Shown: positions 10,612 through 49,062, counted from the stretch's first letter. The stretch is 50,061 bases of DNA from a virus (IMGVR_UViG_3300017963_003892:1-50061), one strand, 5' to 3'. Translations and numbers: made by a program. Notes: generated by a model from the sequence alone, not told the origin.

Positions 10612-11220
10612 ATGCCACAACTAAAAGAATTCAGGGCGATACTATCTGAGAAGAAAGGGCAAAGAAAACAGATACAGTCTGATCTTGATCAGACCAAGAT
10701 CGATATAGAACTGCTAAAAGAAGATATCAGATTCACACAGATCGCGAGAGCTATCATTCAGAAGGTTGCCAGCGAGACCCAGAAGCAACTCGAATATCAC
10801 ATCAGCGAGCTGGTATCACTGGCAATGTCTGGCATCTTCCCTAACCCTTATGAATTCGAGGTTGAATTTAGGGAACATAGAGGGCGGACAGAATGCCAAA
10901 TGAACTTCAAAAGAAACGGTCAGAAAGTAGATCCTCTTATGGGTGGTGGAGGTGGTCCGCTTGATGTTGCCAGTTTTGCTCTCATCCCAACTGTATGGAG
11001 CCTGAAGCCTACCAGGAATTTCCTTGCCCTGGATGAACCTTTTAAATATCTTAGCCGCGACCTACAACCAAAAGCATCAGAGATGCTGAAAGAGATATCA
11101 AAAAGGCTTGGTTTACAGGTGCTGATGGTTACCCATTCGCCCGATCTGATAGAAGGTGCAGACAAAATATTTAAGACATCAATTAAAGATGGAATAACGG
11201 AGGTTTCAGAGGATGTATAA
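10612..11220 (+). CDS. SbcC/Rad50-like ATPase, C-terminal half
   Basis: Completes the ABC ATPase. It has an N-terminal coiled coil (residues 1-75), a signature-like loop MGGGGGPLDVASFAL (about 105-120), Walker B NFLALDEPF, a D-loop-like region, and a switch His in VTHSPDL. It lacks Walker A and the zinc hook, both present in the protein at 7839. At 202 residues it is the C-lobe plus a short arm. The split therefore falls at the coiled-coil apex, with the Mre11-like gene between the halves. Confidence 0.8.
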   Translation: MPQLKEFRAILSEKKGQRKQIQSDLDQTKIDIELLKEDIRFTQIARAIIQKVASETQKQLEYHISELVSLAMSGIFPNPYEFEVEFREHRGRTECQMNFKRNGQKVDPLMGGGGGPLDVASFALIPTVWSLKPTRNFLALDEPFKYLSRDLQPKASEMLKEISKRLGLQVLMVTHSPDLIEGADKIFKTSIKDGITEVSEDV

Positions 11221-11959
11221 CGGAAAAGAAATAACCACTATCATTCAAGCAAGACTTGGATCAACAAGACTGCCGAATAAAGTTCTACTACCTCTGGCTA
11301 ATAGGTCGGTTATAGAATGGGTATTTCATCGTTCATGTTATTCAAGGTATACTGATAGAACCATCGTTGCCATTCCTGATAATGAAGAAAACAGCCACCT
11401 CGCTGATTTTCTATACAATAAAAATATGAATTTCATCACTTGGAAAGGCGATGAGGATGATGTTATGTCAAGGGTCATCGCTGCTGCAAGCATCACCAAA
11501 ACTGACATCATCGTTGACATAACTGCTGATTGCCCGATGGTCGACCCGTGGCATATTGATTATATGATAAAGCTAAAAGAAGATAATCACATTGAATATA
11601 TATCTAACTGTGTGATGAGAACATGGCCTGATGGATTAGATATACAAATATATGATTTGAATACTCTACGAAGTGTTAAGAAGATATTCAAGCCAAAGAA
11701 TCATGTTGGTTGGAATATAGCACAACATCCAACATTCTTCAGTGTATTCAACCTATCGGCTCCCGATGAATACTACTGGCCTGAATTAGGACTCACCCTC
11801 GATACCGAGGATGATTATACCTTGCTATCACATATTTTCAAGATATTTAAAAAAGATATATATTTCAGAGTTGAAGATATTATTCGATATATCAAAAAAA
11901 ATCTCCCACTTGCTGACATAAACAAACATATCATAAGAAAGAAACCAGAAGAAGGATAA
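11213..11959 (+). CDS. CMP-sugar cytidylyltransferase (SpsF/NeuA-like)
   Basis: Likely activates a nonulosonic acid or related sugar with CTP. IIQARLGSTRLPNKVLLPL matches the nucleotide-binding start of SpsF-type transferases, and DITADCPMVDP is the second conserved block. 248 residues fits SpsF. A GGAGG precedes the ATG, which overlaps the Rad50-like stop by eight bases. It opens a six-enzyme sugar cluster. Some SpsF relatives act on other sugars, so the substrate is inferred from the NeuB-like neighbour. Confidence 0.75.
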   Translation: MYNGKEITTIIQARLGSTRLPNKVLLPLANRSVIEWVFHRSCYSRYTDRTIVAIPDNEENSHLADFLYNKNMNFITWKGDEDDVMSRVIAAASITKTDIIVDITADCPMVDPWHIDYMIKLKEDNHIEYISNCVMRTWPDGLDIQIYDLNTLRSVKKIFKPKNHVGWNIAQHPTFFSVFNLSAPDEYYWPELGLTLDTEDDYTLLSHIFKIFKKDIYFRVEDIIRYIKKNLPLADINKHIIRKKPEEG

Positions 11960-11965
11960 ACCAAA

Positions 11966-12952
11966 ATGCCAAAAGATAGATATTCAGCAGTGATTATAGG
12001 AGCAGGATCTATTGGGGCTTTAAAGCCTGACAAATATGACAGCCCTAATACCGAAAATATCCTTACCCATGCTCATGCTATCTATAATAATCCAGAAACT
12101 GAACTGATAGCTATTGTTGATAACGATATTGATAAAGCGAATAAGGCAGCAGATAAATGGAGTTGTAAACCTCTATATGATCTACAAGATGCGCCTTTTC
12201 TTTATGGATCAGATATATATGTTGTAGCTACTCCAACCCATACTCATAAAAGAATTCTTGAAAGTGTTCTTACACTCAAACCAAAGATAGTAATCGCTGA
12301 AAAGCCATTTACGAGAGGGTTTATTGAAGCAAAGATGGTATCGGATTTATATGAGAAAAATAATATTCCATTAGTGGTGAATTATTCAAGGCGATTTACT
12401 TTTGAATATGGACAAATTAAAGAAATGATTGACAGTGAAAAATGGGGCAAAGTATTGAATTGCAACTTTTACTATAACCGAGGATTAAAACATGAAGGAT
12501 GCCATGCTATCGACCTCTTTAATTATTTCTTTGGAGAGTTGATTGATGGAAACATAATACTTGATAATTCAATATGTGACTACTCACAATTTGATCCAAC
12601 ATATGCAGCATTCTTCACATATCAAAAATGCCCCTATATATTTATGTTTCCAGTCGATGGTAGGAAGATATCAATATTTGAGATGAATATCATGTTTGAA
12701 AAAGCCAGGGTTAGCTTCGTCGATCATGGTACAAAATTAAATATATATGAGCTAACAACTGAAGAGATATATGATAATACCAAGGTGCTTTCAAGCACTC
12801 CAACAAAAACAATCAACACACAACTTACCAAATCACTTTCATGTCTTATTGATAACACTGTTAATTATCTTGATGGAAATATGGACTTCTTATTATGCAC
12901 AGATAAAGATGCAATAGAAGTCCATGAAGTCTATTACGCAATAGGTCTTTAA
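11966..12952 (+). CDS. Gfo/Idh/MocA-family sugar oxidoreductase
   Basis: NAD(P)-dependent oxidoreductase. The Rossmann motif is IIGAGSIGALK near the N-terminus, and IAEKPFTR is the family's EKP signature with the substrate-contact lysine. YVVATPTHTHKRIL is the loop typical of the family. A C-terminal alpha/beta domain follows, giving 328 residues in all. It sits between the cytidylyltransferase and aminotransferase. Legionaminic-acid loci of the Ptm type are reported to carry a related oxidoreductase. The exact step is not clear from the sequence. Confidence 0.75.
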   Translation: MPKDRYSAVIIGAGSIGALKPDKYDSPNTENILTHAHAIYNNPETELIAIVDNDIDKANKAADKWSCKPLYDLQDAPFLYGSDIYVVATPTHTHKRILESVLTLKPKIVIAEKPFTRGFIEAKMVSDLYEKNNIPLVVNYSRRFTFEYGQIKEMIDSEKWGKVLNCNFYYNRGLKHEGCHAIDLFNYFFGELIDGNIILDNSICDYSQFDPTYAAFFTYQKCPYIFMFPVDGRKISIFEMNIMFEKARVSFVDHGTKLNIYELTTEEIYDNTKVLSSTPTKTINTQLTKSLSCLIDNTVNYLDGNMDFLLCTDKDAIEVHEVYYAIGL

Positions 12953-12968
12953 ATAAGGAGATTAAGAA

Positions 12969-14324
12969 ATGCCAAAACTTGCAATAAAAGGTGGTCTTAA
13001 AGTTAGAAATAACCCTTTCCCGAATATGTCAACAATAGGCCAAAGTGAGTTGAATGCAGCGAGAAGGGTTATATTGACAGGAAATTTATCAGGTTTCAGA
13101 GGCAATTCAGGCCCAGGGTTTCAAGGTGGTCCCGAAGTAAGAGCACTTGAAAAGGAATGGGAAAAGAAATTTGGAGTTAAACATGCTATCGCCGTCAACT
13201 CCTGTACATCGGGGTTGCATATTGCTTGCATAGCCATTGATTTAAAACCAGGTGATGAAGTAATTGTGACTCCATGGTCGATGTCATGTAGTGCGACAGC
13301 GCCTATGATATGTGGGGCTATTCCAATCTTCGCTGACATTGAAGAGGATTATTATTGCCTTGATCCTCAATCGATAAGGGATAGAATAAGTGCAAGAACC
13401 AAAGCAATTATAGTAGTTGACTTATTTGGGCAGCCACATGATTATTCAGAAATACGAAAAATAGCCGACGAATATAGTCTATCTATAATTGAGGATGCTG
13501 CACAAGCCATCGGATCATACTACGGTAAAAGAAGTACAGGAACGCTTGGAGATATCGGCGTTTATTCCTTCACTCAAGGGAAGCATATTACCTGCGGTGA
13601 AGGTGGTATGATCGTAACAAATGATGATAAATTAGCGATGTCTTGTATGTTGCTAAGAAATCATGCCGAGGCGGTTGAAAATGATTTGATTGGTTCAAAA
13701 CCAAATTATAAAAAATATACTCTCCCTACATTTGATCACAATCTATTTGGATTCAACATGAGAATGACAGAGATACAGGCCGCCATACTGAGAGAGCAAC
13801 TCAAGTATTTAGATGGCGTTGTAGAAAAGCATCAGAAATCAGAACAATTCATAAGTGATAATCTAAGCCATCTAGATTATATTATCAAGTTTCCTAAAGT
13901 CAGACCTTACTCAACACATTCTTATTATGTTCAAGCTTTAAAATGGAGAACTGAAAATAAACATACTGAAGGAATACACCGCGATCAATATATTGAAGCA
14001 GTCAGGGCGGAGTTATCGCATGAAGAAGGTAGAGCTATTGAAGGCGTCCCGATCAGCTACGGATACATAAAACCTCTTTACTTATTTCCTATATTCCAAA
14101 ACTACCAAGATAAGTTAGACATCTATAAAAATGAGTATGAAAAAATCAGAAGGAGGCGTATAAAGGAGAATTATACACAAGGCAGTTGCCCTGTAGCTGA
14201 AAGATTATGGAAGAATGAAATAATTATAAACAGGCTGGTTGGAATGAATCTAATGGTTAGTGATCTTAAGGATGTCGTTAATGCATTCATTAAGGTTTGG
14301 GAGAATAGGGATGAATTAAGGTAA
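12969..14324 (+). CDS. DegT/DnrJ/EryC1/StrS sugar aminotransferase (PLP)
   Basis: PLP-dependent transfer of an amino group to a keto-sugar, PseC/LegC-type if the pathway reading is right. VNSCTSGLHIAC (phosphate-binding turn), GDEVIVTPWSM, IEDAAQAIG (Asp that pairs with the pyridine nitrogen) and FTQGKHITCGEGG (Schiff-base lysine) are all present. 451 residues is longer than PseC/LegC (about 390). The extra length is mainly an insertion before the C-terminal domain (around KWRTENKHTEGIHR). Good AAGGAG ribosome-binding site. Confidence 0.85.
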   Translation: MPKLAIKGGLKVRNNPFPNMSTIGQSELNAARRVILTGNLSGFRGNSGPGFQGGPEVRALEKEWEKKFGVKHAIAVNSCTSGLHIACIAIDLKPGDEVIVTPWSMSCSATAPMICGAIPIFADIEEDYYCLDPQSIRDRISARTKAIIVVDLFGQPHDYSEIRKIADEYSLSIIEDAAQAIGSYYGKRSTGTLGDIGVYSFTQGKHITCGEGGMIVTNDDKLAMSCMLLRNHAEAVENDLIGSKPNYKKYTLPTFDHNLFGFNMRMTEIQAAILREQLKYLDGVVEKHQKSEQFISDNLSHLDYIIKFPKVRPYSTHSYYVQALKWRTENKHTEGIHRDQYIEAVRAELSHEEGRAIEGVPISYGYIKPLYLFPIFQNYQDKLDIYKNEYEKIRRRRIKENYTQGSCPVAERLWKNEIIINRLVGMNLMVSDLKDVVNAFIKVWENRDELR

Positions 14325-14329
14325 GGAAT

Positions 14330-14482
14330 ATGAAAACAAAAAATATAGATAAAATCATTCTTGTAGTTATCGGGTTTAATATAGCCGTTAATATACATCA
14401 AGGAAATTGGCAGGCGGCGCTTGGATGGTTTATCGCCTCTCTTACTATTATTAGATTGCTTTTCTTTTATAAAGAGAAATAA
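14330..14482 (+). CDS. Small membrane-associated ORF
   Basis: 50 residues with AAGGAAT just before the ATG and a stop 22 bases before the NeuB-like gene. Two hydrophobic stretches (9-20 and 29-46) end in FFYKEK. Not recognised. It may be a genuine small membrane protein in the sugar operon. Confidence 0.4.
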   Translation: MKTKNIDKIILVVIGFNIAVNIHQGNWQAALGWFIASLTIIRLLFFYKEK

Positions 14483-14504
14483 AAAATTAATAAGGATCAG
14501 TAAA

Positions 14505-15365
14505 ATGATACCATTTATAGCAGATATTGGAAGCAACCATAATCAAAGTCTCACAAGGGCTAAAAATCTTATTTTAGCTGCAAAAGAGAGTGGTTGTTGG
14601 GGAGTTAAGTTTCAGCTTTTTAAAGCCGAACAGCTATGGAGAGATAAGACAGTAGCAGGAAGGATGAAGCATTGGGAATTGCCAGAAGAGTTCATTCCTG
14701 AGCTTTCAAGTTTTTGTAAAGCGCTTGATATAGCCTTCGGCTGCACACCTTTCTACTTAAAAGCTGTCGATATACTCAAAGATCATGTTGACTTTTTAAA
14801 GGTTGGTTCATACGAATTACTCTGGCTTGATTTAATCAGGAAGTGTGCAAAAACTGATAAGAAGCTTATCCTATCGACTGGCATGGGATCATTTGTTGAG
14901 ATACTTAATGCAATGTCAGCCGCCATTGTGCATTGTAAATCAGGATGTAATGATGATGATAACGTCTTAGGTTCTATATCAGTCCTGCATTGTAATTCGA
15001 CCTATCCTGCCAACCTTGAAGATTGCAATATGGCACAGATAGAAGTGCTTAGAAATCAATTTCGGAGATCAGTTGGATGGAGTGATCATACCACTGAGCC
15101 AGGGGTAATTTATTCTGCCATTTCATATGGTGCCTCAATAATTGAATTTCATTTGGATTTAGAAGATAAGCAAGGGGTCGAATCTAGAAGCGGCCATTGC
15201 TGGAAACCAAGTAAAATTGAATGTGTTATAAATAATATAAGCAACTGGTTGAAGACTGAATATTTCAGTAAAACCAGTTTAACACAAAAAATAGAGGAGC
15301 TAAGAAAGTCAAGAACTGACCCAACTGATGGAATGAGGCCATTGAAGAATGTCAAATCTACATAA
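14505..15365 (+). CDS. NeuB/PseI/LegI-like nonulosonic acid synthase
   Basis: Condenses a hexose with phosphoenolpyruvate to give a nine-carbon acid. IADIGSNHNQ, WGVKFQLFKAEQLW, FGCTPFYLKAVDIL, LKVGSYEL, LSTGMGSF, LHCNSTYPA and GWSDHTTEPG follow the NeuB TIM-barrel order. The ATG at 14505 starts exactly at the conserved N-terminus with AAGGATC upstream. At 286 residues it is shorter than NeuB (about 350) and appears to lack the C-terminal antifreeze-like SAF domain, which closes the neighbouring active site in the dimer. Activity is therefore uncertain. Confidence 0.8.
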   Translation: MIPFIADIGSNHNQSLTRAKNLILAAKESGCWGVKFQLFKAEQLWRDKTVAGRMKHWELPEEFIPELSSFCKALDIAFGCTPFYLKAVDILKDHVDFLKVGSYELLWLDLIRKCAKTDKKLILSTGMGSFVEILNAMSAAIVHCKSGCNDDDNVLGSISVLHCNSTYPANLEDCNMAQIEVLRNQFRRSVGWSDHTTEPGVIYSAISYGASIIEFHLDLEDKQGVESRSGHCWKPSKIECVINNISNWLKTEYFSKTSLTQKIEELRKSRTDPTDGMRPLKNVKST

Positions 15366-16332
15366 TGCCGAAATATTAATAACAGGCGGGACAGGTAGCC
15401 TTGGGCTAACCCTTGTAAAAACCCTTGTAAAATATCATTCAGAAATAAAAGGGATACGAGTCTTTTCAAGAGACGAACTGAAGCAATGGCTGATGAAGCA
15501 GGAGATCAACGTATGGTGTATCAAAAATAAGCTCTATGTGCCGATCTCTTATTTGGTGGGTGATGTAAGAGATATCAAAAGGCTTAAGATTGCGATGAGA
15601 GGGGTCACCCATGTCATCCATGCTGCTGCCATGAAGCAAGTCCCTGCCTGTGAAGAAAACCCTCTTGAAGCGATTAAGACAAATATAGGCGGTGCAGAGA
15701 ACATATTAGAAGCCGCTCTTTCATGTGACTCAATCGAGAAGGTTTTAGGCATAAGTACTGATAAGGCAATATACCCTATAAATCTCTACGGGGTTACGAA
15801 AGCCGCGATGGAAAAGTTATTCATCCAAGGCAACGTTTACAGTAAAGGACATGAGAGAAAACCAAGATTCAGTTGCTGCCGATATGGGAACGTTATAGGA
15901 AGCAGAGGAAGTGTGATTCCTTTATTTAAAAGTCAATATGATAGAAATCAAGAGATAACCGTTACCGATTTGAAAATGACAAGGTTTTGGATTACCCGGC
16001 CAGCCGCTGCTCGCTTTGTAATAAATAGATTGATGTATATGGAGGGTGGTGAGATATTCGTCCCTAAAATGCCAAGTTGTAGGGTTGTCGATCTTGCCAG
16101 AATGCTTATCCCTGATGTCCCTATAAAATATGTAGGGATAAGGAAAGGAGAGAAGATTCATGAATGGCTGATAACAACTGAGGAGAGCAGCGATTTATTA
16201 GAGTTAGGTAAAAGCTATGTAATCTCTTCAAGATATCAAAACAAGCATAAGAAGTTCGCTTATAACAGCCTTAGTAATGAACGGATTTTGAAAAAAGATG
16301 AATTCCATAAAATGTTAATAGAAGAAGTATAG
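15349..16332 (+). CDS. PseB/CapD-like UDP-sugar 4,6-dehydratase (SDR)
   Basis: First step of pseudaminic- or legionaminic-type pathways: UDP-GlcNAc dehydration. ILITGGTGSLG is the NAD(P) loop. HAAAMKQVPACEENPLEA is near-diagnostic of the PseB/FlaA1 family. STDKA and YGVTK (catalytic Tyr-x3-Lys) complete the active site. 327 residues is the expected length. It overlaps the NeuB-like gene by 17 bases, so the two are coupled. Confidence 0.85.
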   Translation: MSNLHNAEILITGGTGSLGLTLVKTLVKYHSEIKGIRVFSRDELKQWLMKQEINVWCIKNKLYVPISYLVGDVRDIKRLKIAMRGVTHVIHAAAMKQVPACEENPLEAIKTNIGGAENILEAALSCDSIEKVLGISTDKAIYPINLYGVTKAAMEKLFIQGNVYSKGHERKPRFSCCRYGNVIGSRGSVIPLFKSQYDRNQEITVTDLKMTRFWITRPAAARFVINRLMYMEGGEIFVPKMPSCRVVDLARMLIPDVPIKYVGIRKGEKIHEWLITTEESSDLLELGKSYVISSRYQNKHKKFAYNSLSNERILKKDEFHKMLIEEV

Positions 16333-16341
16333 GAGAAAAAA

Positions 16342-16599: not shown

Positions 16600-16602
16600 T
16601 AA

Positions 16603-17169
16603 ATGAATAAAATATATGAAACAGATGATCTCATATTCGTTCCTTTCTTCAATATCAATCTAAAAAATAGCAATTACTATGCTTGGATGCATGATCAGGA
16701 AGTCACCAGATATAACTCACATGGCCTCTTCCCTTATACAAAGAAAGAGGAGGATGAATGGCGTCAGGCGATTATAGATAATAAAATCATCGCCTGGGCA
16801 ATAGTGAAGAAAATAGGCCCAAAAGAATTAGCCGGGCATCCTGTTAAGAGGACAGAGATGATCCATATAGGTAATGTCAGTCTTCAGAGTTTCAACTGGA
16901 TTAATCGAAGTGCTGAAATCGCCATCGTAATTGGCGAGAAGCAATACTGGGGTAAGGGATATGCGACTAAAGCATTCGATATAATGATAAGTCATGGATT
17001 CATGAAATTGAATCTTCACAGGATATGGTCTGGAACGGCTTCTATTAATAACGGGATGATTAGGGTATTTGAAAAAGTAGGAATGCAATACGAAGGAACC
17101 TTTAGGGATGGAACTTTTCTTAATGGCCGTTATGTTGATGTTGTCTGCTATGCAGCGATTCAGGTGTAG
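16603..17169 (+). CDS. GNAT N-acetyltransferase (PseH/RimJ-like)
   Basis: Acetyl-CoA-dependent acetyltransferase, a good candidate for the PseH/LegH N-acetylation step. IAIVIGEKQYWGKGYATKAF is the acetyl-CoA-binding motif A region (Q/RxxGxG/A), with LNLHRIWSGTASINNGMI and FEKVGMQYEGTFRDG typical of the RimJ/PseH subgroup. 188 residues is standard. It closes the sugar cluster before a GC-rich gap. Confidence 0.75.
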   Translation: MNKIYETDDLIFVPFFNINLKNSNYYAWMHDQEVTRYNSHGLFPYTKKEEDEWRQAIIDNKIIAWAIVKKIGPKELAGHPVKRTEMIHIGNVSLQSFNWINRSAEIAIVIGEKQYWGKGYATKAFDIMISHGFMKLNLHRIWSGTASINNGMIRVFEKVGMQYEGTFRDGTFLNGRYVDVVCYAAIQV

Positions 17170-18355: not shown

Positions 18356-18724
18356 ATGGAATTAGAAACATTAAAATATGGGATTGAAGAGCTAGAAAAA
18401 CTCATCAGCGGATTACAGCCCGTCGGTAAACATATCTGGGATGTAATGGTAAGACAAGCGATAATAAATTCTATATTAAGTTGGGCATTCTTATTAGCGT
18501 TTTCAATAGTAATATATAAATTAATCACTTTTCTAAACAAACATTGGGAACCAACTGAAGGGTATAGTATAACCGAAAATGATCATGAGGCATTTTGGAT
18601 ATCCTTATTGTTTATTGTTTCTATATTTGTAATTGTCGCATTAGTCAACTTCTTAATTCATGGCTTTGATATACTAAACCCTGAATATAGAGCTATCATG
18701 GGATTAATAGGCAGAAATGAATAA
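18356..18724 (+). CDS. Membrane protein, two spans, unknown
   Basis: 122 residues. A soluble amphipathic N-terminus (1-38) is followed by hydrophobic spans at about 42-63 and 82-105, with a short tail. The five-gene neighbourhood of small proteins gives no function. A holin is conceivable from size and topology, but no lysin is nearby and the evidence is weak. Confidence 0.55.
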   Translation: MELETLKYGIEELEKLISGLQPVGKHIWDVMVRQAIINSILSWAFLLAFSIVIYKLITFLNKHWEPTEGYSITENDHEAFWISLLFIVSIFVIVALVNFLIHGFDILNPEYRAIMGLIGRNE

Positions 18725-18911
18725 ATCATCAAACCAAAATCAAATATTAAACGAGATAGAAGCCATCCGTTCCTCGAATAATTCTAACTGGATGAGGATT
18801 ATAAGAATCGCTCTCAAGCATGATAAAGAAGAAACTATAAAACTTCTTAAGAACATAGTTGAAATGGACGGAAGAATAAAGTCAGAAATGGAGAAACTAA
18901 TTAATGAATAG
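18717..18911 (+). CDS. Hypothetical small helical protein
   Basis: 64 residues overlapping both neighbours by eight bases. Charged and helical (ILNEIEAIRSSNNSNW, DKEETIKLLKNIVEM). Coupled to the Maf-like gene. No family recognised. Confidence 0.5.
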   Translation: MNKSSNQNQILNEIEAIRSSNNSNWMRIIRIALKHDKEETIKLLKNIVEMDGRIKSEMEKLINE

Positions 18912-21816
18912 GAAAAGGCTTAGTGTAAATCTAAAATCAATTATGGATATAAACCCATCCTTGTATAGCTGGATAGATAAGCAGGAAGAGGTTGATTGGG
19001 TTAGAGAAATCAAAAGTGATGATGGCCTCCCAAATCTTCTTATTTCAATTGGAAACAAGACAATCGCTGCATATAAAATGAGGGGTGCGAAGATAGAGGC
19101 TTTTCGTGCGGCGAAGAAAATGAAACTTTATAAGGAGAATGTCAGCATATTAATAGGTTTCGGCCTTGGGTATATGGCAAGGGCGATGCTTGATAAAATG
19201 GAGAAAGGGCATCATGTCATAGTCATTGAACCAGTCGGTCATGTGCTGAGACTTGGGCTATCTAATTTTGACTTCTCAAAAGAGATAAGAAATTTTGAAT
19301 TAATCATCGTCGAACCAAACCCAAAAGAAATAGCAGCCGCCTTTGGTATACTTGATAATAGTTACATCGTTAATGATTGGTTGGTAACAATCAATAAGTA
19401 TACCAAGCTGAGGCCAGATGAATATGGCGAATCAATGAAGTTAGTTCTCGATATCCTGAATCAGATCATGTGTTCCATTGGTACGATAGCTGGAGGGGCA
19501 GGAGCGAAGATAGCTGATAATGATATTGCTTGTCTTCCTTATGTTATCCGTCATAGAGGAGTAGCTGAACTGAAAGATATATTCAAGGATAAACCAGCAA
19601 TACTTGTCAGCACCGGGCCAAGCCTTGCTAAAAATATTCATCAATTAATCGATATCAGCAAAGAAAATAAAGCCGTAATAATTGCAGTTGGACAAGCCCT
19701 CAGAATTCTACTCGCCTACGATATTAAACCTGACTTCATCTGCACGGTTGATTTTGGTGAGGTCAACATGGGGCATTTTACAGGTCTTATGAATTCAGAT
19801 GTCCCACTCGTTACAATCAATAGAGCCTATGCTCCTTTACTGAAATCATGGCAAGGGCCAAAGTTCATCGTCTCTACTCCGGTGCCAGGGTTTGAGAAAA
19901 CCGCCGCTGGCATACTAACTAATAAAGGCAGTCTTGAGGCAGGTGGTAGTGTTGCACATCTCTGCTTTACATTTGCACAATCACTTGGTTGTGATCCAAT
20001 AACGTTAATTGGTCAGGATTTGGCTCTATCAAATACATCTCATATTCCCTTGGCTGATGCCTCCGGCAAAATTCAAATATCGGAGAACGGACAGATAGGT
20101 TGGAAGGTAAGCGATCATCGCTGCCATCTTCACAATGAAAAAGATGAAGTTTATGGTATGGGGCCAGTCCATCAAGTCCCAGGTTACTATGGTAAGCCTG
20201 TGATAACAAACCTGGGGCTCGCTTCATTTATAACGAGCTTTGAAGCGATGGCAAGCAAGTGCGAGGCAAAAGTAATCAATGCAACCGAGGGCGGAGCAGA
20301 TATCCGCAATACTGAAAAGATGATGCTCAAAGAAGTCATAAATCAATACTGCAAAGAAAAGATCGACAAAACAGAATTAGAAAAGTTGAAAACTCTTGCT
20401 GATGATGGTGATGATCTTATTGAAAAAGTCATCCCCTTACTTGAAAAGGATATTGATAATCTCAATGAGGTGATAAGTCAAGGTAGAAAAGGGCTGGCAA
20501 GCGCAAGAGGATTAGCGACACTTATGAGTCGTAATAATTATAAAGCTCTTCTTAACAAAAAAAATAAGGTATTCCTAAACAAACTATTAAAAGAAAGTAA
20601 GAGTGAGTCAGAAGTCGATAGAATAAATATGAATATAATATTCTTTGAGAAATTAGTTAATCAGTTAAGAAAATCAAAATTAAAGAATATAGTCCTTCTA
20701 ACTCAGAAAAATTTCGTGCATTCAGAAAATACGAGGATAGCAGCGACAAAGAATCCTCTTGTCAACGTCGCCATATATGGAGCGAGTAGAAGAATATGGC
20801 AAAGGAAGCTTAAGGTTAATGAAAAGTTCGAGCACTTTTTAACCAATAGAAAAGATGCAATGACAAGGCTTGAAAGGAATAAATTAATCTTAAATGCCGC
20901 CGTCAGTGCTGCAAAAGAACTAAAGCCTACATATAAGAAAACCCTAAAGCTGCTTAAGAAATATAATAAGAAAAAAGATGATAGTTTGCTGGTTGATAGA
21001 ACACCCGAACTAATGGACCTCAGTGATGCAGATAGTTATTTTGATGCTGATAACTGGGCACATCCATTGGTTGACGCGAAGAGATGTATTGATAAAATGC
21101 TGTTACTATCCAATGCCAAGCCATCAATATGTAACAAACCATTTGATGAAGTGAAGGCAATCTATAAAAAAGCTCTCACTATGAGAGAAGAAGCGATAGA
21201 GAAAGCAAAAAAAGAAGAGTATGATAATTGGGAAGAAAGAAAGAAAATTCTTGAATATAATCGCCTGATAAAAGAAAGTAGAGAAGCTGGTAAGAATGAT
21301 CAAGACTTTAGCAAAGCAGTTGAGATCCTTGAGGAGGCGAAAGAATTATTTCCAGATAATCCTGAAGCTAAGTGGGGCTTAGCCACTGCCCTACATCATT
21401 CGGGTCGATTTGATGAATCATTATCTATGTATCGAGAACTGATAAAGGAATCGCCTGATAATAACAGATACAAATTTGAGATGGGCCAGGTGCTACTTAA
21501 GACGGGGCAAACAAAGGAGGGATTAGATACATTGAAAGAGGCGATGGAATCAACCAGCGAATTCGATGGTGCCCTGGCAAATATTGGACAGATATATGAA
21601 CACGCTGGAATGAATAAAGATGCCCTTAGAGCTTATAATCTTTACCTGAAAAAGTTCCCAGCGGACTATGAAGTCTTGAATATGAAAGCAGTATGCCTTT
21701 CGAAGTTGAAGAGATATGGGCAGGCCATTAAAGTATTAAAAGCCTGTCTGAAAATAAAGCCGGATTTTAAGCAGGCAAAAGAAAACTTGCAAGTATTAAA
21801 GCGGCGTGGAATATAG
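18904..21816 (+). CDS. Maf/DUF115 glycosyltransferase-like protein with C-terminal TPRs
   Basis: 970 residues. Maf proteins (DUF115, MptE-like fold) transfer nonulosonic acids onto serine or threonine of flagellin. The DUF115 core is at about 220-450: PAILVSTGPSLAKNI, AVIIAVGQALRILLAYDIK, then PDFICTVDF, SLEAGGSVAHLCFTFAQSLG and LIGQDLAL. Residues 50-215 form an N-terminal Rossmann-like part (VSILIGFGLGYMARAM). A helical linker spans about 450-780, and TPR-type helices (PEAKWGLATALHHSGRFDES and relatives) fill about 800-970. TPRs usually bind protein, perhaps the acceptor. It follows the sugar cluster on the same strand. Confidence 0.75.
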   Translation: MNRKRLSVNLKSIMDINPSLYSWIDKQEEVDWVREIKSDDGLPNLLISIGNKTIAAYKMRGAKIEAFRAAKKMKLYKENVSILIGFGLGYMARAMLDKMEKGHHVIVIEPVGHVLRLGLSNFDFSKEIRNFELIIVEPNPKEIAAAFGILDNSYIVNDWLVTINKYTKLRPDEYGESMKLVLDILNQIMCSIGTIAGGAGAKIADNDIACLPYVIRHRGVAELKDIFKDKPAILVSTGPSLAKNIHQLIDISKENKAVIIAVGQALRILLAYDIKPDFICTVDFGEVNMGHFTGLMNSDVPLVTINRAYAPLLKSWQGPKFIVSTPVPGFEKTAAGILTNKGSLEAGGSVAHLCFTFAQSLGCDPITLIGQDLALSNTSHIPLADASGKIQISENGQIGWKVSDHRCHLHNEKDEVYGMGPVHQVPGYYGKPVITNLGLASFITSFEAMASKCEAKVINATEGGADIRNTEKMMLKEVINQYCKEKIDKTELEKLKTLADDGDDLIEKVIPLLEKDIDNLNEVISQGRKGLASARGLATLMSRNNYKALLNKKNKVFLNKLLKESKSESEVDRINMNIIFFEKLVNQLRKSKLKNIVLLTQKNFVHSENTRIAATKNPLVNVAIYGASRRIWQRKLKVNEKFEHFLTNRKDAMTRLERNKLILNAAVSAAKELKPTYKKTLKLLKKYNKKKDDSLLVDRTPELMDLSDADSYFDADNWAHPLVDAKRCIDKMLLLSNAKPSICNKPFDEVKAIYKKALTMREEAIEKAKKEEYDNWEERKKILEYNRLIKESREAGKNDQDFSKAVEILEEAKELFPDNPEAKWGLATALHHSGRFDESLSMYRELIKESPDNNRYKFEMGQVLLKTGQTKEGLDTLKEAMESTSEFDGALANIGQIYEHAGMNKDALRAYNLYLKKFPADYEVLNMKAVCLSKLKRYGQAIKVLKACLKIKPDFKQAKENLQVLKRRGI

Positions 21817-38384: not shown

Positions 38385-38387
38385 ACA

Positions 38388-39434: not shown

Positions 39435-39447
39435 AACGCCTCCTTGA

Positions 39448-39957: not shown

Positions 39958-39981
39958 TTTATAAATCCTCCTAGCTTTTTA

Positions 39982-40024
39982 TAGGCTTAATGGAGAGCAT
40001 AATATATCAGCCCTCCATAGCCTA
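39982..40024 (-). promoter_or_regulatory. Long hairpin before the 39957 gene
   Basis: On the minus strand ATGGAGGGC pairs with GCTCTCCAT (9 bp, one G-T) around an 11-base loop. The flanks TAGGCT/AGCCTA extend it by 6 bp across a 2-base bulge. It is not followed by a T-run. It lies just upstream of the AGGAGG of the next gene, so processing or translational control is more likely than termination. Confidence 0.6.
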
Positions 40025-40037
40025 CTTCTTTGGCTCA

Positions 40038-40616: not shown

Positions 40617-40656
40617 GATTTATTCCTCCTTGGTGTGGTTTATTTTTTATTCAATA

Positions 40657-40687
40657 ATGAGAAGCATCATTTAAAAATGCTTCTCAT
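40657..40687 (-). promoter_or_regulatory. Perfect 11-bp hairpin after the capsid gene
   Basis: ATGAGAAGCAT and ATGCTTCTCAT pair perfectly around a 9-base A/T loop, 16 bases after the capsid stop. The downstream minus-strand sequence (TATTGAATAAAAAATAAA) is A-rich, not T-rich. It could protect the 3' end of an abundant capsid message or act as a weak terminator. Confidence 0.6.
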
Positions 40688-40702
40688 CAAAGTTTTAATC
40701 TA

Positions 40703-42151: not shown

Positions 42152-42174
42152 ATCAAATTCTCCTTTGTAAAGTA

Positions 42175-42963
42175 TTAACTATTGACTTGTTTCAAAGTTT
42201 TTAGAATCTCAAGCATCCCACTTGAATCTTCCTCATCTAAGTGGCTACTTTGATAGCCTGCATTTGCCTGATTTAGAATACGCAGCACCTCTGATAAGCC
42301 AGTAGCACCGCTCATCCTTCCCTCATCTGCCTCCCGCAGATAGGGTTTGTAGAGTTTAACCAGAAATTGAGCGAAGCTTCGTGAACAACCAGCATCCCGC
42401 AGGCTTCTTTCAAGCTCTCTCTCGGTTCCAGCTTCTTCAAATAGTTTCGGGTTTAATGTTTTCACTGTTTCAATTCTTGCATTTATATTAGCTGGGAATG
42501 TTACGATACTTAATTCCCATAAATCAATTTCTTTTAATAGTCGCGTACCTTTTTCTTTGCCGGGCTCGTGATCAACTACATCATAACCAATCGATAGACC
42601 AAAGCCAAATGACTTTGATTCAAACCCAAGCTTCATCGTCTCATAGACATCCTTCCCAAGTGATGTCCGCATAGCCAGTTTACCGACAGATCGCAGCCCT
42701 CTTGAATCTTCAGCCAGCTCAGTCCATACGCCTGGGATCTGATCTGACTTATGTTGCCATAGCATTGGGATTCCGTTGCCATTCCTGCCACCCTTTGCAA
42801 GCGATTTGACATAAGCGCCCTTTGCGACAATATCACCATGAGCATCAGGAAGGCCACCAAATGTCGAACCATATCCTCGAAATATACCATCTTCCTCGAT
42901 TTCCTTTACTTCGAATGGAAATGCGAGAAAGCTTTTATTCTGCCGGCTATCTTTTTTATTCAT
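42175..42963 (-). CDS. HK97-type prohead protease
   Basis: 262 residues from ATG 42963 (GGAG eight bases upstream); an ATG at 43002 with AAGGA is a longer alternative. DGIFRGYGSTFGGLPDAHGD, MLWQHKSDQIPGVW (catalytic His), KSFGFGLSIGYDV (catalytic Ser) and LWELSIVTFPANINA match the peptidase family of HK97 gp4. It matures the capsid. A 49-bp stretch around the catalytic His is copied in the small gene at 7164. Confidence 0.9.
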   Translation of the reverse strand: MNKKDSRQNKSFLAFPFEVKEIEEDGIFRGYGSTFGGLPDAHGDIVAKGAYVKSLAKGGRNGNGIPMLWQHKSDQIPGVWTELAEDSRGLRSVGKLAMRTSLGKDVYETMKLGFESKSFGFGLSIGYDVVDHEPGKEKGTRLLKEIDLWELSIVTFPANINARIETVKTLNPKLFEEAGTERELERSLRDAGCSRSFAQFLVKLYKPYLREADEGRMSGATGLSEVLRILNQANAGYQSSHLDEEDSSGMLEILKTLKQVNS

Positions 42964-43053
42964 ATTTGATTCTCCATCACGATTGCCTCTCCCATAAAAC
43001 AATATCCTTATATAAAATTATAATTTATTTTTTCCAGAAAAAAAAGTAAAAAA

Positions 43054-43185
43054 TTATTCTCTATCTCCCTCAGGATCTTCTGAGTCATCATCTTCTAAAG
43101 TAAATTGGATTATTTTCCCATCCTTATCAACAAATTCAATGGAATCTATCCAATTATTGAACTCATCCTCATTATCTAATATCAT
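43054..43185 (-). CDS. Small acidic protein, unknown
   Basis: 43 residues, ATGA overlap with the MuF-topoisomerase stop. Strongly acidic (MILDNEDEFNNWIDSI, LEDDDSEDPEGDRE). The composition resembles DNA mimics or small chaperones, but no family is recognised. Coupling to the topoisomerase fusion is of interest: an acidic partner might hold that enzyme inactive before ejection. Confidence 0.5.
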   Translation of the reverse strand: MILDNEDEFNNWIDSIEFVDKDGKIIQFTLEDDDSEDPEGDRE

Positions 43186-44990
43186 TTTAAACCGCCTATA
43201 AAATCCCACACCATTGGATCAATGTAAGAATTACGTGCCATTGTTGGTGTATTATGAAGAAATCCACTTACTCTTTCAGAGACCTCTTTAATTATTCTTT
43301 TCTTCATTCTTTTATCTATTTTCTGTCCAGCATACTTTTTTAATTCATCATAAGCAATCCTTGTGCCATGATACGTTCTAAAATCTTTAATCGTATATTT
43401 CTTACCATCTGCTAATTCTTTCAAATATTTATTCAGCTTACTTGCCGTTATATCAGGAAATAATTTTTCCCCAGGTTTAGTATTTATTTTTCTTTCTTTG
43501 AGCCATTTTGATAATATATTATCTTTCAATCTATAACTCACAGGGATACCTTCTTTCGCAATAAAATTTAATTTAATTAAGTCGCCTTTTATTTCAATAT
43601 GCTCATGTCGTAGAGTAGTTAGTCCATATGCTTTTTTCTTAGCTCTAAAATCTCTAGATGATCCTGCTCGAATAGCTGTCTTATTTTCAAGTTCTAATAA
43701 ATAAGCCCTACCATCACCAGCTTTCATACCCTCTTTAATTTTATCTCTAATACCAACAAGATCATTTTTAAAAGATTTAATACGATTAAATTTTTTCCTT
43801 GCAGCCTCTTCAATATGTTCCGCTGAATATCTATATTGCCACCTGCCTGCTTTATCCAAACCTATGGCTTGTATCTTAGATTTTAAATCAGTTGATACTA
43901 CTACATTTCGCCATGCGGGAGGCAAGCGCATTTTATTTAATCTTTCAAACTCTTCAGTAGATACTTCCTTCCCTTTTAAAAACCATTTTCCTTCATCATT
44001 CCTTACATAATCTTCACATGATTGTGGAACCTTCTTAAACTCAATTATAAATACTCCCTTCCATTCTACTAAACAATTATCCATCTTCCCAATTATATTC
44101 ATCGGTGCATTAGAAGAAGTAATAGGCGGCTCATAAGGCTTAACAGGCTGAGTACTTCTTACGGTATGATAAAGCACAACACAACGGCAATTTACAATAT
44201 TCCCAGGGCTACCAGAGGGATCACCGGGATAATCCAAAGCCTCTCCAGTCCTTGTAAACTTAGCATCCATCGCAACCCGCTCACCATCTGCCGCCCTGTG
44301 CGCTATTCTTGTTCTATCATCAAGAGCTGACATCCACTCCTTTTCCATCTCTATTCTTGTGCTTCTAACGGCTGCTTGAACTGATTTAACACCAGCGGTG
44401 TGAGTCTCTGTCCTTGCTATCCTAAGAGCTCTAACAGGATTCGTAACCCTACTATTACTCCTAATCTCTTTCGCTATCTCTTTATGGGATATCCCCTCTC
44501 CCATCCCTTTTTGAATAATACCGATAATATTCTTTTTTGTTGTCTTATGAAGACGGCGGATCTTTGAATGCTCTGCTTGATACACCATCCACCGATCCAT
44601 CTCTCCCCAGAATTCATCCTTTGGGGTTTTAGTGGCGGAAGGCGAAACATCAGCTTCATTAAACCATAAACTTCTCCCTTTTTCTTCTGCAAGTCTATTA
44701 AATGTTGACTTCAGGGATATATCCACCGCATCATATACCTTTTTAAGGAATACTTTCGCCACCCGTCGATAGTGATTTTTAAGAGTCTCTACCATCCTTC
44801 TATACTCACTATCAACCGCGAGATCGATACCAGTTAGTAAACCCTGCTCAACAAACTTTGCTGCATTAAGATACTGACGACCAAGGATAGGCCTAAGCTC
44901 TCTTGCATAGGTATTCTCAAGTGGCTGCATTATTCGAGTCATTTCAAACAGGAAAGCCCTGCGAGCTCTTCTATTTGTAATATTAATCAT
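43182..44990 (-). CDS. MuF head morphogenesis protein fused to DNA topoisomerase IB
   Basis: 602 residues in one uninterrupted frame. Residues 1-280 are the MuF/SPP1-gp7 minor head protein: ARTETHTAGVKSVQ, WMSALDDRTRIAHRAADGE, YPGDPSGSPGNIVNCRC. Residues about 310-602 are a topoisomerase IB: LPPAWRNVVVS, QAIGLDKAGRWQYRY, IRAGSS (Arg441), SYGLTTL-like YGLTTLRHEHIEI, FIAKEG (Lys479), IKDFRTYHGT (Arg538), NTPTMARNSYIDP (Asn580, Tyr589). The catalytic set Arg-Lys-Arg-Asn-Tyr and its Asn-to-Tyr spacing follow the bacterial enzymes. Type IB enzymes relax supercoils through a 3'-phosphotyrosine. The portal gene overlaps upstream by four bases. Confidence 0.85.
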   Translation of the reverse strand: MINITNRRARRAFLFEMTRIMQPLENTYARELRPILGRQYLNAAKFVEQGLLTGIDLAVDSEYRRMVETLKNHYRRVAKVFLKKVYDAVDISLKSTFNRLAEEKGRSLWFNEADVSPSATKTPKDEFWGEMDRWMVYQAEHSKIRRLHKTTKKNIIGIIQKGMGEGISHKEIAKEIRSNSRVTNPVRALRIARTETHTAGVKSVQAAVRSTRIEMEKEWMSALDDRTRIAHRAADGERVAMDAKFTRTGEALDYPGDPSGSPGNIVNCRCVVLYHTVRSTQPVKPYEPPITSSNAPMNIIGKMDNCLVEWKGVFIIEFKKVPQSCEDYVRNDEGKWFLKGKEVSTEEFERLNKMRLPPAWRNVVVSTDLKSKIQAIGLDKAGRWQYRYSAEHIEEAARKKFNRIKSFKNDLVGIRDKIKEGMKAGDGRAYLLELENKTAIRAGSSRDFRAKKKAYGLTTLRHEHIEIKGDLIKLNFIAKEGIPVSYRLKDNILSKWLKERKINTKPGEKLFPDITASKLNKYLKELADGKKYTIKDFRTYHGTRIAYDELKKYAGQKIDKRMKKRIIKEVSERVSGFLHNTPTMARNSYIDPMVWDFIGGLK

Positions 44991-46660
44991 TCTTCACCAG
45001 CCGCCTCAAATGTGCCGCCTCTACTATTACAATGGGATCTTGCTGACGCAGCCGTCCATGAGCCCTTTTTATATCTTAAAGCCTGTACCGACGCCTTACC
45101 ATCTTTTATTCCGAATATGTAATCTACACATTTATTATCACTTCTTCTATAACAGTTAACTCTATTAAAACTATCAAATTGATCAGGGGGTTTTAAACGA
45201 CAAGCATGCTCATTCGGATATGGTTTGCCTTCATCTGGCATAGCATCTGGTGGTAATTCTTTAACATCAAACGATTCATCCTTTTTATTACCACCATATG
45301 TAAAGCCAAGCATATCATCTATTTCATCATCAGAATATCCCTGCTCAATCAGATTCATTCTAATATTGTCTTCTTCTTCAACTTCCTCTTCTTCACTTTC
45401 TTCATCCTCAGCAACTCCAAGAGGGATCATCGTGGCTGGAACCAGGATGACATCACCAGGCTTATCTGTTGGCTCATACTGCTCTAATCCAACCATCTCG
45501 CGCTTTTCATTTATAGTCAGAAAGTCACTCCCTTGTGCTCTCTCCCACAGCTTATCCCTCTTATATGAAAGTGCTGGGACGTTATCGAGGATATAATCTG
45601 CAAATACATTCTCTTCTTTTTGGAAAAGCCAATTATTCAGCTCACCTTTAAAATAATTCAAATAAAAGAATATAGTAGTTTCCCAAAAATCAGCCCTCGC
45701 TTCGCGATAGTTAGCATAGGTACTATCACCAGGGATACCAAGAAGCTGAGGTGGTACTCCATAACCAAGCGCGATCCTTCTTGCCAATTCCCTACCACCC
45801 TCTGTGAAATCGAGATCTTTTGGTGCCCAGGCGTACGGTTCAGCCTTTGTCCCGGATTCACCAGTTATAATAATATTCTTCCCAGCATTCTTCGCACCCG
45901 TATGCTGTTCACGAAGGTGACGTTCGAGGGCATCAAATCCCTCCTCCCCGAGTGCACCAACAAGGGTAAACACCATCCCAGGACGGCCCTCATTATCAAG
46001 TATTGATTTGTTCCATTCAGTAGCTTGATTTGATGAATCTATCTCTCTGGCGGTGGGCTCTGTCACCGATGCTCCCCACCAATCATCAGTCGGGTGGAAT
46101 GATTTTAATTGCAATACATCACATTGACCTGTAATGTCATCAACCTCCCAATTAGTTTCATTCGAGCCAACCCGATAGGTAAAGCCGGATAGCTTTCCTT
46201 CAGATGTATTTATCTTCATCCTATCAGGTCTTAATACATAGAGTTCCTTTGGGATACCTTTATTTTTTCCTGACGATGGGGATACTCTCTCAATAAATGA
46301 ATTACCACAAATCAACAAATATGAGGTCAACGATAGCATCAGAAATTCAAAACTATCACTTGGATTTGCTCTATGGAATAGATCATTTACAGGATGTTCT
46401 AAGAAATATTCTCTGTTATCATCATCGATATTCTTGAATACTTTCCAAGGGACGGAACAGACTGATTTAGCTATCTTATCTATACACTTGAAAGCGATGA
46501 CATTCTTGAGATAGGATTCCTTTGCAAAGTTTTCATAATCGTTAGGTGTCCATACTGCCCCACCCATACCAACAGAAACCATCCCGGCTGTTCTGCTTTC
46601 TTTCCTCTCGCCTCTTTTAAACCAATTAAAAAATCTCATTTTTCTATGACCCCTCATCAT
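44987..46660 (-). CDS. Portal protein
   Basis: 557 residues. HK97/SPP1-type portal: VWTPNDYENFAKESYLKNVI, SVCSVPWKVFKN, HPVNDLFHRANPSDSFEFL, GNSFIERV, LRRIALGYGVPPQLLGI-like region (ARRIALGYGVPPQLLGIPGD) and TINEKREMVGLEQYEP. An acidic stretch follows (EDEESEEEEVEEEDN). The last 80 residues form an extra module (NEHACRLKPPDQFDSFNRVN to WTAASARSHCNSRGGTFEAA) that occurs in several phage head proteins; its role is unclear. Confidence 0.9.
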   Translation of the reverse strand: MMRGHRKMRFFNWFKRGERKESRTAGMVSVGMGGAVWTPNDYENFAKESYLKNVIAFKCIDKIAKSVCSVPWKVFKNIDDDNREYFLEHPVNDLFHRANPSDSFEFLMLSLTSYLLICGNSFIERVSPSSGKNKGIPKELYVLRPDRMKINTSEGKLSGFTYRVGSNETNWEVDDITGQCDVLQLKSFHPTDDWWGASVTEPTAREIDSSNQATEWNKSILDNEGRPGMVFTLVGALGEEGFDALERHLREQHTGAKNAGKNIIITGESGTKAEPYAWAPKDLDFTEGGRELARRIALGYGVPPQLLGIPGDSTYANYREARADFWETTIFFYLNYFKGELNNWLFQKEENVFADYILDNVPALSYKRDKLWERAQGSDFLTINEKREMVGLEQYEPTDKPGDVILVPATMIPLGVAEDEESEEEEVEEEDNIRMNLIEQGYSDDEIDDMLGFTYGGNKKDESFDVKELPPDAMPDEGKPYPNEHACRLKPPDQFDSFNRVNCYRRSDNKCVDYIFGIKDGKASVQALRYKKGSWTAASARSHCNSRGGTFEAAGEE

Positions 46661-46934
46661 ATATCATCAGGGAATAGGGTTCGCCTGGCGCAGTCCTTGA
46701 ATCATTAAATGTAACATGAGCCCAAAAGGTCCACATACCCGATGTTCCAAGAGTTTGTCCTGCTGAAAAATCCTTATAAACGATCCCATTTAGTTCATCA
46801 CTAACTGTGGCGGCCCATGAACCCTCGACCCCATTTGGATCTTTATATTTTATCACAACCGACTGGGCACCCGAAAGTGTTTGCCCAATATGTGCGATTA
46901 TTCTCAAATAATCCTGGTTTTTATATACTTTCAT
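46644..46934 (-). CDS. Small beta-rich protein upstream of portal
   Basis: 96 residues. It overlaps the portal start by 17 bases. YLRIIAHIGQTLSGAQSVVI then KYKDPNGVEGSWAATV, ending MWTFWAHVTFNDSRTAPGEP, looks like an immunoglobulin- or fibronectin-like beta sandwich. Proteins of this type occur in phage structural blocks without an assigned function. Confidence 0.6.
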   Translation of the reverse strand: MKVYKNQDYLRIIAHIGQTLSGAQSVVIKYKDPNGVEGSWAATVSDELNGIVYKDFSAGQTLGTSGMWTFWAHVTFNDSRTAPGEPYSLMIYDEGS

Positions 46935-46944
46935 AATCCATTCT

Positions 46945-49062
46945 CTATTTTAACGGTGAACTAAACTCTATATATCTTAAAGTAGTGACTTCAGCACTAC
47001 TGCTGCTTGAACTACTACTACTTGATTCCGATGATGAGCTTGAACTTGACGACTCAGACGATGAGCTGCTTGATTCAGACGAACTTGATGAACTGCTACT
47101 TGATGATTCAGAAGACGATGACGATGATGATGAACTTGAACTTGATGACTCAGACGAACTTGATGAACTACTGCTGCTTGATTCAGACGATGAACTTGAC
47201 GAACTTGAGGATTCAGATGAGCTTGAACTGCTGCTAGAAGATTCTGAAGACGACGATGATGATTCAGACGAGCTTGAACTACTGCTTGATGATTCTGACG
47301 ACGAGCTTGACGACCGAGAAGAGGAGCTTGACGACCGAGAAGAGGAGCTTGATGATTCAGACGATGATGATGAATGAGAAGAACTAAGACTTGATGAACT
47401 CGATGATTCAGATGAAGATGAAGACGATTCAGATGAAGATGAAGACGATTCAGATGAAGATGAGGATGATTCTGATGACGATGACGAACTACTGCTGCTT
47501 GACATTGATGAAGATGAACTTGAACTACTACTACTTGATTCTGATGATGATGATGATCCAGACGATTCAGATGAACTTGATGATTCAGAAGATGATGAAC
47601 TCGAACTTGATGATTCAGAAGATGATGAACTCGAACTTGATGATTCAGAAGAGGATGAAGAACTTGATGAACTTGATGATTCAGAAGATGATGAACTCGA
47701 ACTTGATGATTCAGAGGAACTTGAAGAACTTGAGCTTGATGATTCTGATGAACTACTACTCGATGATTCTGAAGAACTTGAGCTGCTACTCGATGATTCA
47801 GATGACGATGATGAACTGCTTGATTCTGACGATGATGATAAGCTACTACTTGACGATTTAGATGAAGAAGATGAACTTGATGATGAGGATGAGCTTGTAC
47901 TTGATGAACTCGATGATTCAGAGGATGAACTCGATGATTCTGATGATGAGCTTGATGATTCCGAAGATGAGCTACTGCTACTACTCGATCCAGATGATTC
48001 CGATGAACTACTGCTTGAAGATTGTGACGATGAACTTGATGACAGAGACGAAGATGACGATGAAACAGAGCTCGATGACTCAGATGAGCTTGAGGAATCA
48101 GAAGAACTTGAAACACCAGATGATGAGCTTGACTCAGACGAAGAAGATGAACTACTGCTACTTGACTCAGAAGATGACGATGAACTGGATGACTCTGATG
48201 AACTCGATGAGCTACTACTACTTGATTCTGATGATGACGATGAACTACTACTTGATGATTCAGACGATGAGCTTGAAGATGAACTACTTGACTCTGATGA
48301 TGAGCTTGAAGATGAACTGCTTGATTCTGATGAGGATGATGACATCTTTGATGATGCCGAAGACGAACTTGAACTACTGCTACTTGACTGAGAAGAGGAG
48401 CTTGAAGAAAGAGAAGATGAACTTGATGACTCTGATGAACTCGATGAGCTACTACTACTTGATTCCGATGAACTTGACGATTCCGATGAAGATGATGAGC
48501 TACTGCTTGATGATTCAGATGATGATGATGAACTCGAACTGGATGATTCAGATGAGGAAGACAAACTGCTACTGGACGATTCAGATGAAGAGCTTGAAGA
48601 CGAACTTGAAGATTCAGACGAACTTGATGAACTACTGCTGCTTGATTCAGACGAACTTGAAGAACTACTGCTTGATGATTCCGAAGATGAAGATGAGCTC
48701 GAACTTGATGATTCCGATGAACTTGATGAACTACTACTGGACGATTCTGATGATGATGATGATTCAGAAGATGAGCTACTGTTGGATGATTCGGATGAGC
48801 TTGAGCTGCTACTGCTACTTGATTCTGAAGATGACGAAGAACTGCTTGATTCAGACGAACTTGATGATTCTGACAGCGATGATGAGCTTGAAGATTCAGA
48901 CGATGAGCTTGATGATTCTGACGATGAACTTGATGACTGAGAAGACGAGCTTGACGACCGAGATGAAGAGCTTGAAGCTCTTTCCAATAATAGAGCATCA
49001 CTATTTGTCTCTAATAGTAAAGAGCCGCTTTCATCCTCTAATAAAAGTTCATCAAGTGCCAT
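46945..49062 (-). CDS. Giant polyserine/glutamate repeat protein 1
   Basis: 705 residues. A short N-terminal module (MALDELLLEDESGSLLLETN, then SDALLLE), similar to N-termini of small phage structural proteins, is followed by about 650 residues of serine runs (usually 5-10) punctuated mostly by single Glu, rarely Gln, Arg, Leu, Gly, Lys, Met, His, Thr or Val. The C-terminus is AEVTTLRYIEFSSPLK. The serines use all six codons in mixed order. Such a chain would be extended and is an ideal O-glycosylation or phosphorylation substrate. It belongs to the structural block; role unknown. Confidence 0.8.
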   Translation of the reverse strand: MALDELLLEDESGSLLLETNSDALLLERASSSSSRSSSSSSQSSSSSSESSSSSSESSSSSSLSESSSSSESSSSSSSSESSSSSSSSSSESSNSSSSSESSSSSESSSSSSSSSSESSSSSSSSSSESSSSSSSSSSESSSSSSSSSSESSSSSSSSSSESSSSSLSSSSESSSSSSSSSSESSSSSSSSSSESSSSSESSSSSSSSSSESSSSSSLSSSSSSQSSSSSSSSSSASSKMSSSSSESSSSSSSSSSESSSSSSSSSSESSSSSSSSSSESSSSSSSSSSESSSSSSSSESSSSSSSSSSESSSSSGVSSSSDSSSSSESSSSVSSSSSSLSSSSSSQSSSSSSSESSGSSSSSSSSSESSSSSSESSSSSSESSSSSSTSSSSSSSSSSSSKSSSSSLSSSSESSSSSSSSESSSSSSSSSESSSSSSSESSSSSSSSSSESSSSSSSSSESSSSSSSSSSSESSSSSSSSSESSSSSSSSSESSSSSESSGSSSSSESSSSSSSSSSSMSSSSSSSSSSESSSSSSESSSSSSESSSSSSESSSSSSLSSSHSSSSSESSSSSSRSSSSSSRSSSSSSESSSSSSSSSESSSSSSESSSSSSSSSESSSSSSSSSESSSSSSSSSSESSSSSSSSSSSSSESSSSSSSSSSESSSSSSESSSSSSSSESSSSSSSSSSAEVTTLRYIEFSSPLK

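Follow-up and report, generated by a model that had tools for sequence, protein, structure and literature searches.

A predicted nonulosonic-type sugar cassette with a Maf-like transferase in the core genome of an uncultured lineage of Mu-tailed phages

We found that the linear virus DNA IMGVR_UViG_3300017963_003892 (the window, that is the whole IMG/VR record of 50,061 bases) carries a cassette of six predicted sugar genes together with a gene for a Maf-type O-glycosyltransferase, and that this cassette is part of the core genome of an uncultured tailed-phage lineage and no chance grouping. That the nonulosonic-type sugar pathway and the Maf protein form one functional unit is well supported. 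Maf proteins attach pseudaminic or legionaminic acid to serine or threonine residues of flagellin. On balance we lean slightly towards the view that the phages carry in this cassette their own counterpart of the flagellar glycosylation islands of bacteria, and that the sugar most likely goes to a virion protein present throughout the lineage. The open reading frames (ORFs) and their Pfam, NCBIfam and PHROGs matches bear out an initial annotation, made from the sequence alone, in the position of all seven genes:

11213..11959, + strand: cytidine monophosphate (CMP)-sugar cytidylyltransferase of the SpsF/KdsB type, first gene of the cassette (PF02348, 80 bits)
11966..12952, + strand: Gfo/Idh/MocA-type oxidoreductase (PF01408)
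12969..14324, + strand: DegT/PseC/LegC-like sugar aminotransferase (PF01041, 277 bits)
14421..15365, + strand: NeuB-family nonulosonate synthase without an SAF domain (PF03102, 165 bits)
15349..16332, + strand: PseB-like uridine diphosphate N-acetylglucosamine (UDP-GlcNAc) 4,6-dehydratase (PF02719, 310 bits)
16603..17169, + strand: GNAT N-acetyltransferase, weakly PseH-like (PF13302, 85 bits)
18904..21816, + strand: Maf-type O-glycosyltransferase, 970 amino acids (aa) (PF01973, 146 bits, cut-off 34.6)

For the related records, NeuB and Maf alignments were scanned against a viral collection, and the records found were taken whole and annotated with custom-built profiles. Alignment-based scans furnished 23 loci; the scan with a single Maf sequence gave none because its patterns were too specific. 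The cytidylyltransferase and Maf occur together in 27 records (the window and 26 others), which include the near-duplicate pairs G004/G005 and G013/G015, so that the distinct phages are somewhat fewer than 27. All of these records belong to one lineage of Mu-tailed myophages, with a tail sheath 35-39% identical to the sheaths of Mu and Mu-like phages. The cassette genes lie on one strand in every record (27/27), the oxidoreductase is always present (27/27) and the cytidylyltransferase leads the cassette in 26 of the 27. The order cytidylyltransferase, Gfo/Idh, DegT, NeuB, PseB, GNAT, Maf is kept in 21/27, a count that tolerates insertion of a BNR gene, shortening of NeuB or a Maf split into two ORFs; three records have one extra GNAT gene and three (G016, G023, G032) are rearranged. 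As a bait free of the choice of Maf, we fetched records by the tail sheath alone, and all six newly fetched records of at least 39 kilobases (kb) hold both Maf and the Gfo/Idh oxidoreductase, showing that the cassette is core and no chance cluster. In a set of 36 records, portal, capsid and sheath are no more frequent than the proteins of the cassette. Fragments below 30 kb without Maf (G026-G028, G030, G034-G036, G039, G040) were left out of the count of losses because most of those read whole stop near the baseplate genes. G035 and G036 run 7-9 kb beyond baseplate J without Maf, which a rearrangement like that in G016 could explain.

The 970-residue protein consists of an N-terminal domain, an MptE-like/Maf_flag10 catalytic domain, a helical domain and C-terminal tetratricopeptide repeats (TPRs, residues ~790-965), and PF01973 is also matched in 24/25 related records. 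Its AlphaFold model (predicted local distance difference test, pLDDT, of 89) matches the solved Magnetospirillum Maf 5mu5 over model residues 1-683 (Z 24.7, root-mean-square deviation 6.5, 528/632 residues), while residues 776-970 match TPR proteins, namely MamA and the TPRs of O-GlcNAc transferase. With 100.7 bits against the NCBIfam model of PseD (NF050051, cut-off 670), it falls outside the PseD subfamily. FlmG is described as binding flagellin through its TPR part (PMC7591256), and a Maf with C-terminal TPRs (Maf-1) as choosing its acceptor through these repeats (Unay 2024 as cited in PMC13317340). The TPRs of the phage Maf therefore probably bind the acceptor.

Among 84,980 species genomes, the sole clearly cellular relative of the phage Maf is a protein of 984 aa with 26% identity (L104). 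It directly follows genes for flagellin and FliS, names that were read from the translations without a profile match, and its contig also holds genes resembling those for PseB, DegT, the phage-like NeuB and the cytidylyltransferase, as well as a PseG-like gene judged by reading its sequence. This flagellin neighbourhood is found at L104 and not in the 25 phage records tested. The bacterial counterpart was looked for in three genomes. The two other Maf matches in the scan are phage contigs of the lineage (L102, L103) that had been binned into WWE3 and Desulforudis metagenome assemblies, and these are possible host hints only. The cellular relative beside flagellin counts in favour of the island-counterpart reading.

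In four records (G011, G014, G019 and G033; loci L012, L015 and L020) Maf appears as two ORFs, with the break near residue 450 throughout. The halves are separated by an HNH-like ORF in G019. Rfam gave no intron and no other RNA, either for the window or for three split-Maf loci.

The AlphaFold model of the NeuB-family synthase (pLDDT 91) matches NeuB, PseI and SpsE structures with Z 28-33, compared with Z 22-24 for the synthases of 3-deoxy-D-arabino-heptulosonate 7-phosphate (DAHP) and 3-deoxy-D-manno-octulosonate 8-phosphate (KDO8P), and the best PDB sequence match of the phage NeuB profile is SpsE. In a comparison of 15 sequences, the motifs SDHT (SDH(T/S)) and E-x-H are retained. The window NeuB, for which an ATG near 14505 is the likelier start, has no match to the SAF (antifreeze-like) domain and ends in DPxDGMRP instead; the 285-residue Leptospira chain 6ncs aligns with it across nearly its whole length. 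In four records we saw still shorter versions of about 213 aa, which score above the PF03102 cut-off and retain both motifs:

L042:8200-8841, L052:8503-9159, L071:10976-11614 and L070:4305-4949: shortest NeuB, ~213 aa (PF03102, motifs)

One related record encodes a canonical NeuB with the SAF domain. The NeuB step is therefore kept although the enzyme varies.

The dehydratase, whose closest solved relative is the UDP-GlcNAc C6 dehydratase 2gn4, reaches 360 bits against TIGR03589 (cut-off 407.75). DegT gives 210 bits against the PseC model TIGR03588 (cut-off ~424), GNAT 28 bits against PseH (cut-off 93) and NeuB 139 bits against PseI (cut-off 340), so that none of the window proteins reaches the curated NCBIfam cut-offs for PseB, PseC, PseH or PseI. 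The closest solved relatives of the oxidoreductase are inositol dehydrogenases and uncharacterised enzymes.

From gene content, gene order, conservation and predicted folds we infer the following reactions, sugar and acceptor. The PseB-like dehydratase, DegT and GNAT would start from an amino sugar activated by a nucleotide, probably UDP-GlcNAc, and yield a deoxy amino sugar with an N-acyl group. Removal of UDP, for which the 26 records tested encode no PseG-like hydrolase, might be left to a host enzyme or proceed by another route. The NeuB-family synthase would then condense the freed sugar with phosphoenolpyruvate to a nine-carbon acid of the nonulosonic type, which the cytidylyltransferase would load onto CMP. 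Finally, the Maf protein may grip its protein substrate by the C-terminal TPRs and move the CMP-activated sugar to serine or threonine.

Which protein would receive the sugar? The initial annotation had pointed to two Ser/Glu ORFs on the strand opposite to the cassette, and both are indeed there, beyond the portal gene:

46945..49062, - strand: poly-Ser/Glu protein, 705 aa with 583 Ser and 63 Glu, upstream of the portal gene
49066..50061, - strand: second poly-Ser/Glu ORF, 331 aa with 272 Ser, running off the record end

As the right end falls inside this second poly-serine ORF, the record may be a fragment. The 705-aa protein, whose N-terminus has no match in phages, uses 416 TCN and 167 AGY serine codons. 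No single silent step leads from one of these codon sets to the other, and the mixture therefore makes it seem that serine itself is selected. Such an extreme and seemingly selected serine content would suit a main sugar acceptor, as would the SPSISPS-type linkers of great length that four proteins of the structural block have in the related record G011 (L055/L056; G011 37610-47361). We examined the 19 other records that hold portal, capsid, sheath and baseplate J together with Maf, and scored as Ser-rich any ORF of at least 100 aa in which Ser exceeds 34% of some stretch of 80 residues. By this measure 17/19 relatives, in which Maf is equally conserved, have no Ser-rich ORF. The exceptions are G011 and G023, the latter with an ORF of 144 aa in the early region that may be no gene. 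The initial annotation had paired the transferase with the Ser-rich proteins and had set beforehand, as the outcome that would count against this pairing, that relatives keep the sugar cassette while lacking a Ser-rich protein; this is what we observe, and the pairing is not supported. A Clostridium Maf is moreover reported to recognise Ser/Thr by the structure around them in its own flagellin and not to recognise other flagellins (PMC11339370), which also speaks against the poly-Ser/Glu protein. That the poly-Ser/Glu protein is the main acceptor thus appears improbable to us. Because the cassette goes together with one lineage of virions, the best candidate and the probable acceptor is a conserved protein of the virion that the lineage has in common. 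Conserved virion proteins of the window include the sheath, tube, capsid and baseplate hub, a 200-aa protein of the tail region (26031-26633) and two proteins beside the capsid gene (39448-39957 and 40038-40616).

Several observations weigh against this reading. To our knowledge, every characterised Maf acts on flagellin, and since no flagellin is encoded in the 25 phage records tested, flagellin of the host could be the target. The cassette shares its strand with the replication genes and not with the structural genes. Divergence of Maf correlates with that of the sheath (Mantel r 0.32, p 0.003) only modestly and singles out no acceptor; the distance-matrix comparison is best for a baseplate hub gene (r 0.58 for Maf and 0.74 for DegT), but the values are modest for all. 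Finally, the UDP-sugar hydrolase PseG (TIGR03590) is found in 0/26 records. The flagellin record of the Maf family, the flagellin and FliS beside the nearest cellular Maf, and the replication-gene strand, which makes early or middle expression likely, would together fit a phage that modifies its host: Maf would place the sugar on new host flagellin or on another surface protein and so mask a receptor from other phages or alter motility during infection. Host-modification genes are usually accessory, yet no long record of the lineage is without the cassette. Only 1/24 records holds an integrase, so that the other 23 hardly suggest a prolonged residence in the host during which altered flagellin would matter. 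This rarity speaks against lysogenic conversion and, together with the phages' own replication genes, favours a mostly lytic life. We therefore consider modification of the host unlikely, though it is the strongest of the alternatives.

The missing PseG and the unreached Pse models bear on the sugar as well. The sialic-acid-like sugar of the initial annotation stands insofar as a nonulosonic-type pathway is tied to Maf in every long record; for pseudaminic or legionaminic acid in particular, these two results give no support. One may even ask whether the product is a strict nonulosonic acid at all, since Gfo/Idh, DegT and the shortened NeuB could make some other 3-deoxy-ulosonic or amino sugar, which Maf or other transferases would move to a polysaccharide or lipid. 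Gfo/Idh is foreign to the Pse and Sps pathways and yet is present in every two-ended cassette, and several PDB relatives of DegT are inosose or 8-amino-KDO transaminases. However, the NeuB model is clearly nearer to sialic-acid synthases than to KDO8P and DAHP synthases, the PseB-like dehydratase and GNAT suit a nonulosonic route, and a TPR-bearing Maf ends the cassette. We rate this other chemistry about as improbable as the poly-serine acceptor, if anything a shade more so. Within the island-counterpart reading, a bolder version is conceivable and somewhat short of an even chance: this whole lineage of contractile-tailed phages would have adopted a flagellin glycosylation island and come to depend on it for its life cycle. 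It would O-glycosylate its own virion with a nonulosonic sugar by way of the TPR-guided Maf, while a BNR/sialidase-like protein, encoded within the cassette in about one fifth of its members, may remove the coat.

Six records (G003, G004, G005, G011, G019 and G033) encode this protein of ~365 aa, with its gene placed after NeuB and before PseB, and PF13088 scored over its cut-off in both of the two tested:

L100:8541-9644 and L054:7732-8859: BNR/sialidase-like protein inside the cassette

The genes of the window cassette are closely packed at several points. The cytidylyltransferase gene overlaps the 3' end of a preceding SbcC-like gene by 8 nucleotides (nt), the gaps to Gfo/Idh and from there to DegT measure 6 and 16 nt, and the NeuB and PseB-like genes overlap. 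The initial annotation had described a run of six genes and then Maf; this order holds, but a 600-nt gap, a MazG-like gene, a membrane gene and a conserved small gene stand between GNAT and Maf:

18717..18911, + strand: conserved 64-aa protein with an R-x-x-N-N-x-x-W-M motif, in 17 records

The 64-aa gene overlaps the Maf start by 8 nt, and its product has no Pfam match. Homologues of 62-66 aa mostly adjoin Maf or stand at the cassette start in these 17 records. A bacterial Maf that requires a partner protein, GlfM, is described in PMC13317340.

Two further elements of the window lie outside the cassette. Directly beyond Maf we found a TIGR-Tas system, whose Tas endonuclease scores 125 bits against NF052498 (cut-off 100):

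21936-22195, 22239-23165 and 23171-23394: TIGR-Tas parts, the Tas endonuclease with an array on each side

In the arrays, the repeats GCGAGCCA and GAAACCCA alternate at intervals of 18 nt and are parted by short, variable spacers, fitting the dual-repeat arrays as described in PMC12045711. G016 has a weaker Tas-like ORF upstream of its cassette. The second element is a single ORF at 43182-44990 (- strand), which joins a Mu gpF-like minor head protein to the catalytic core of a eukaryote-type topoisomerase IB (PF04233 and PF01028); the topoisomerase part occurs in none of the relatives examined.

In summary, if our reading is right, a self-supplied nonulosonic-type sugar and a Maf that are core to a lineage would represent a new phage route to sugar-coated proteins, and in the members with the BNR/sialidase-like gene this coat would be paired with an enzyme that may strip it. 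The cassette may bear on escape of the phages from recognition or on host choice, and it supplies shortened NeuB synthases (~213 to 290 aa) and TPR-bearing transferases as tools. We know of only few cases of phage virion glycosylation, and the literature searched gave no description of a phage-encoded Maf. Searching INPHARED by tblastn gave no Maf match among 50,697 phage records and only two NeuB matches, both distant. MptE-like (DUF115) proteins of uncultured phages in BFVD share the Maf catalytic domain and cover only part of the window Maf; no whole-length Maf with TPRs is among the BFVD matches listed. The closest known systems are the flagellin islands of Campylobacter, Aeromonas and Clostridium, which as described in PMC13317340 and PMC11339370 combine nonulosonic genes with a Maf of the same fold, in some cases with C-terminal TPRs, and the nearest cellular relative of the phage Maf sits in such an island. 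The phage cassette differs from them in having no flagellin and no PseG, in the added Gfo/Idh and in its fixed order across a virus lineage. With the UDP-linked legionaminic acid pathway of Bacillus subtilis (SpsM, C, D, G, E, F; as outlined in PMC7439481) it shares a PseB-type dehydratase, DegT, GNAT, an SpsE-type NeuB and an SpsF-type transferase, whereas it lacks SpsG and has Gfo/Idh and Maf. Mycobacteriophages, finally, are reported to carry glycans on capsid or tail proteins of the virion (Freeman 2023 as cited in PMC10568470 and PMC12619734). Phage proteins would be the glycan carriers here too, as we propose from the genes alone, and what sets the present lineage apart from the mycobacteriophages is a flagellin-type Maf together with its own supply of a nonulosonic-type sugar.

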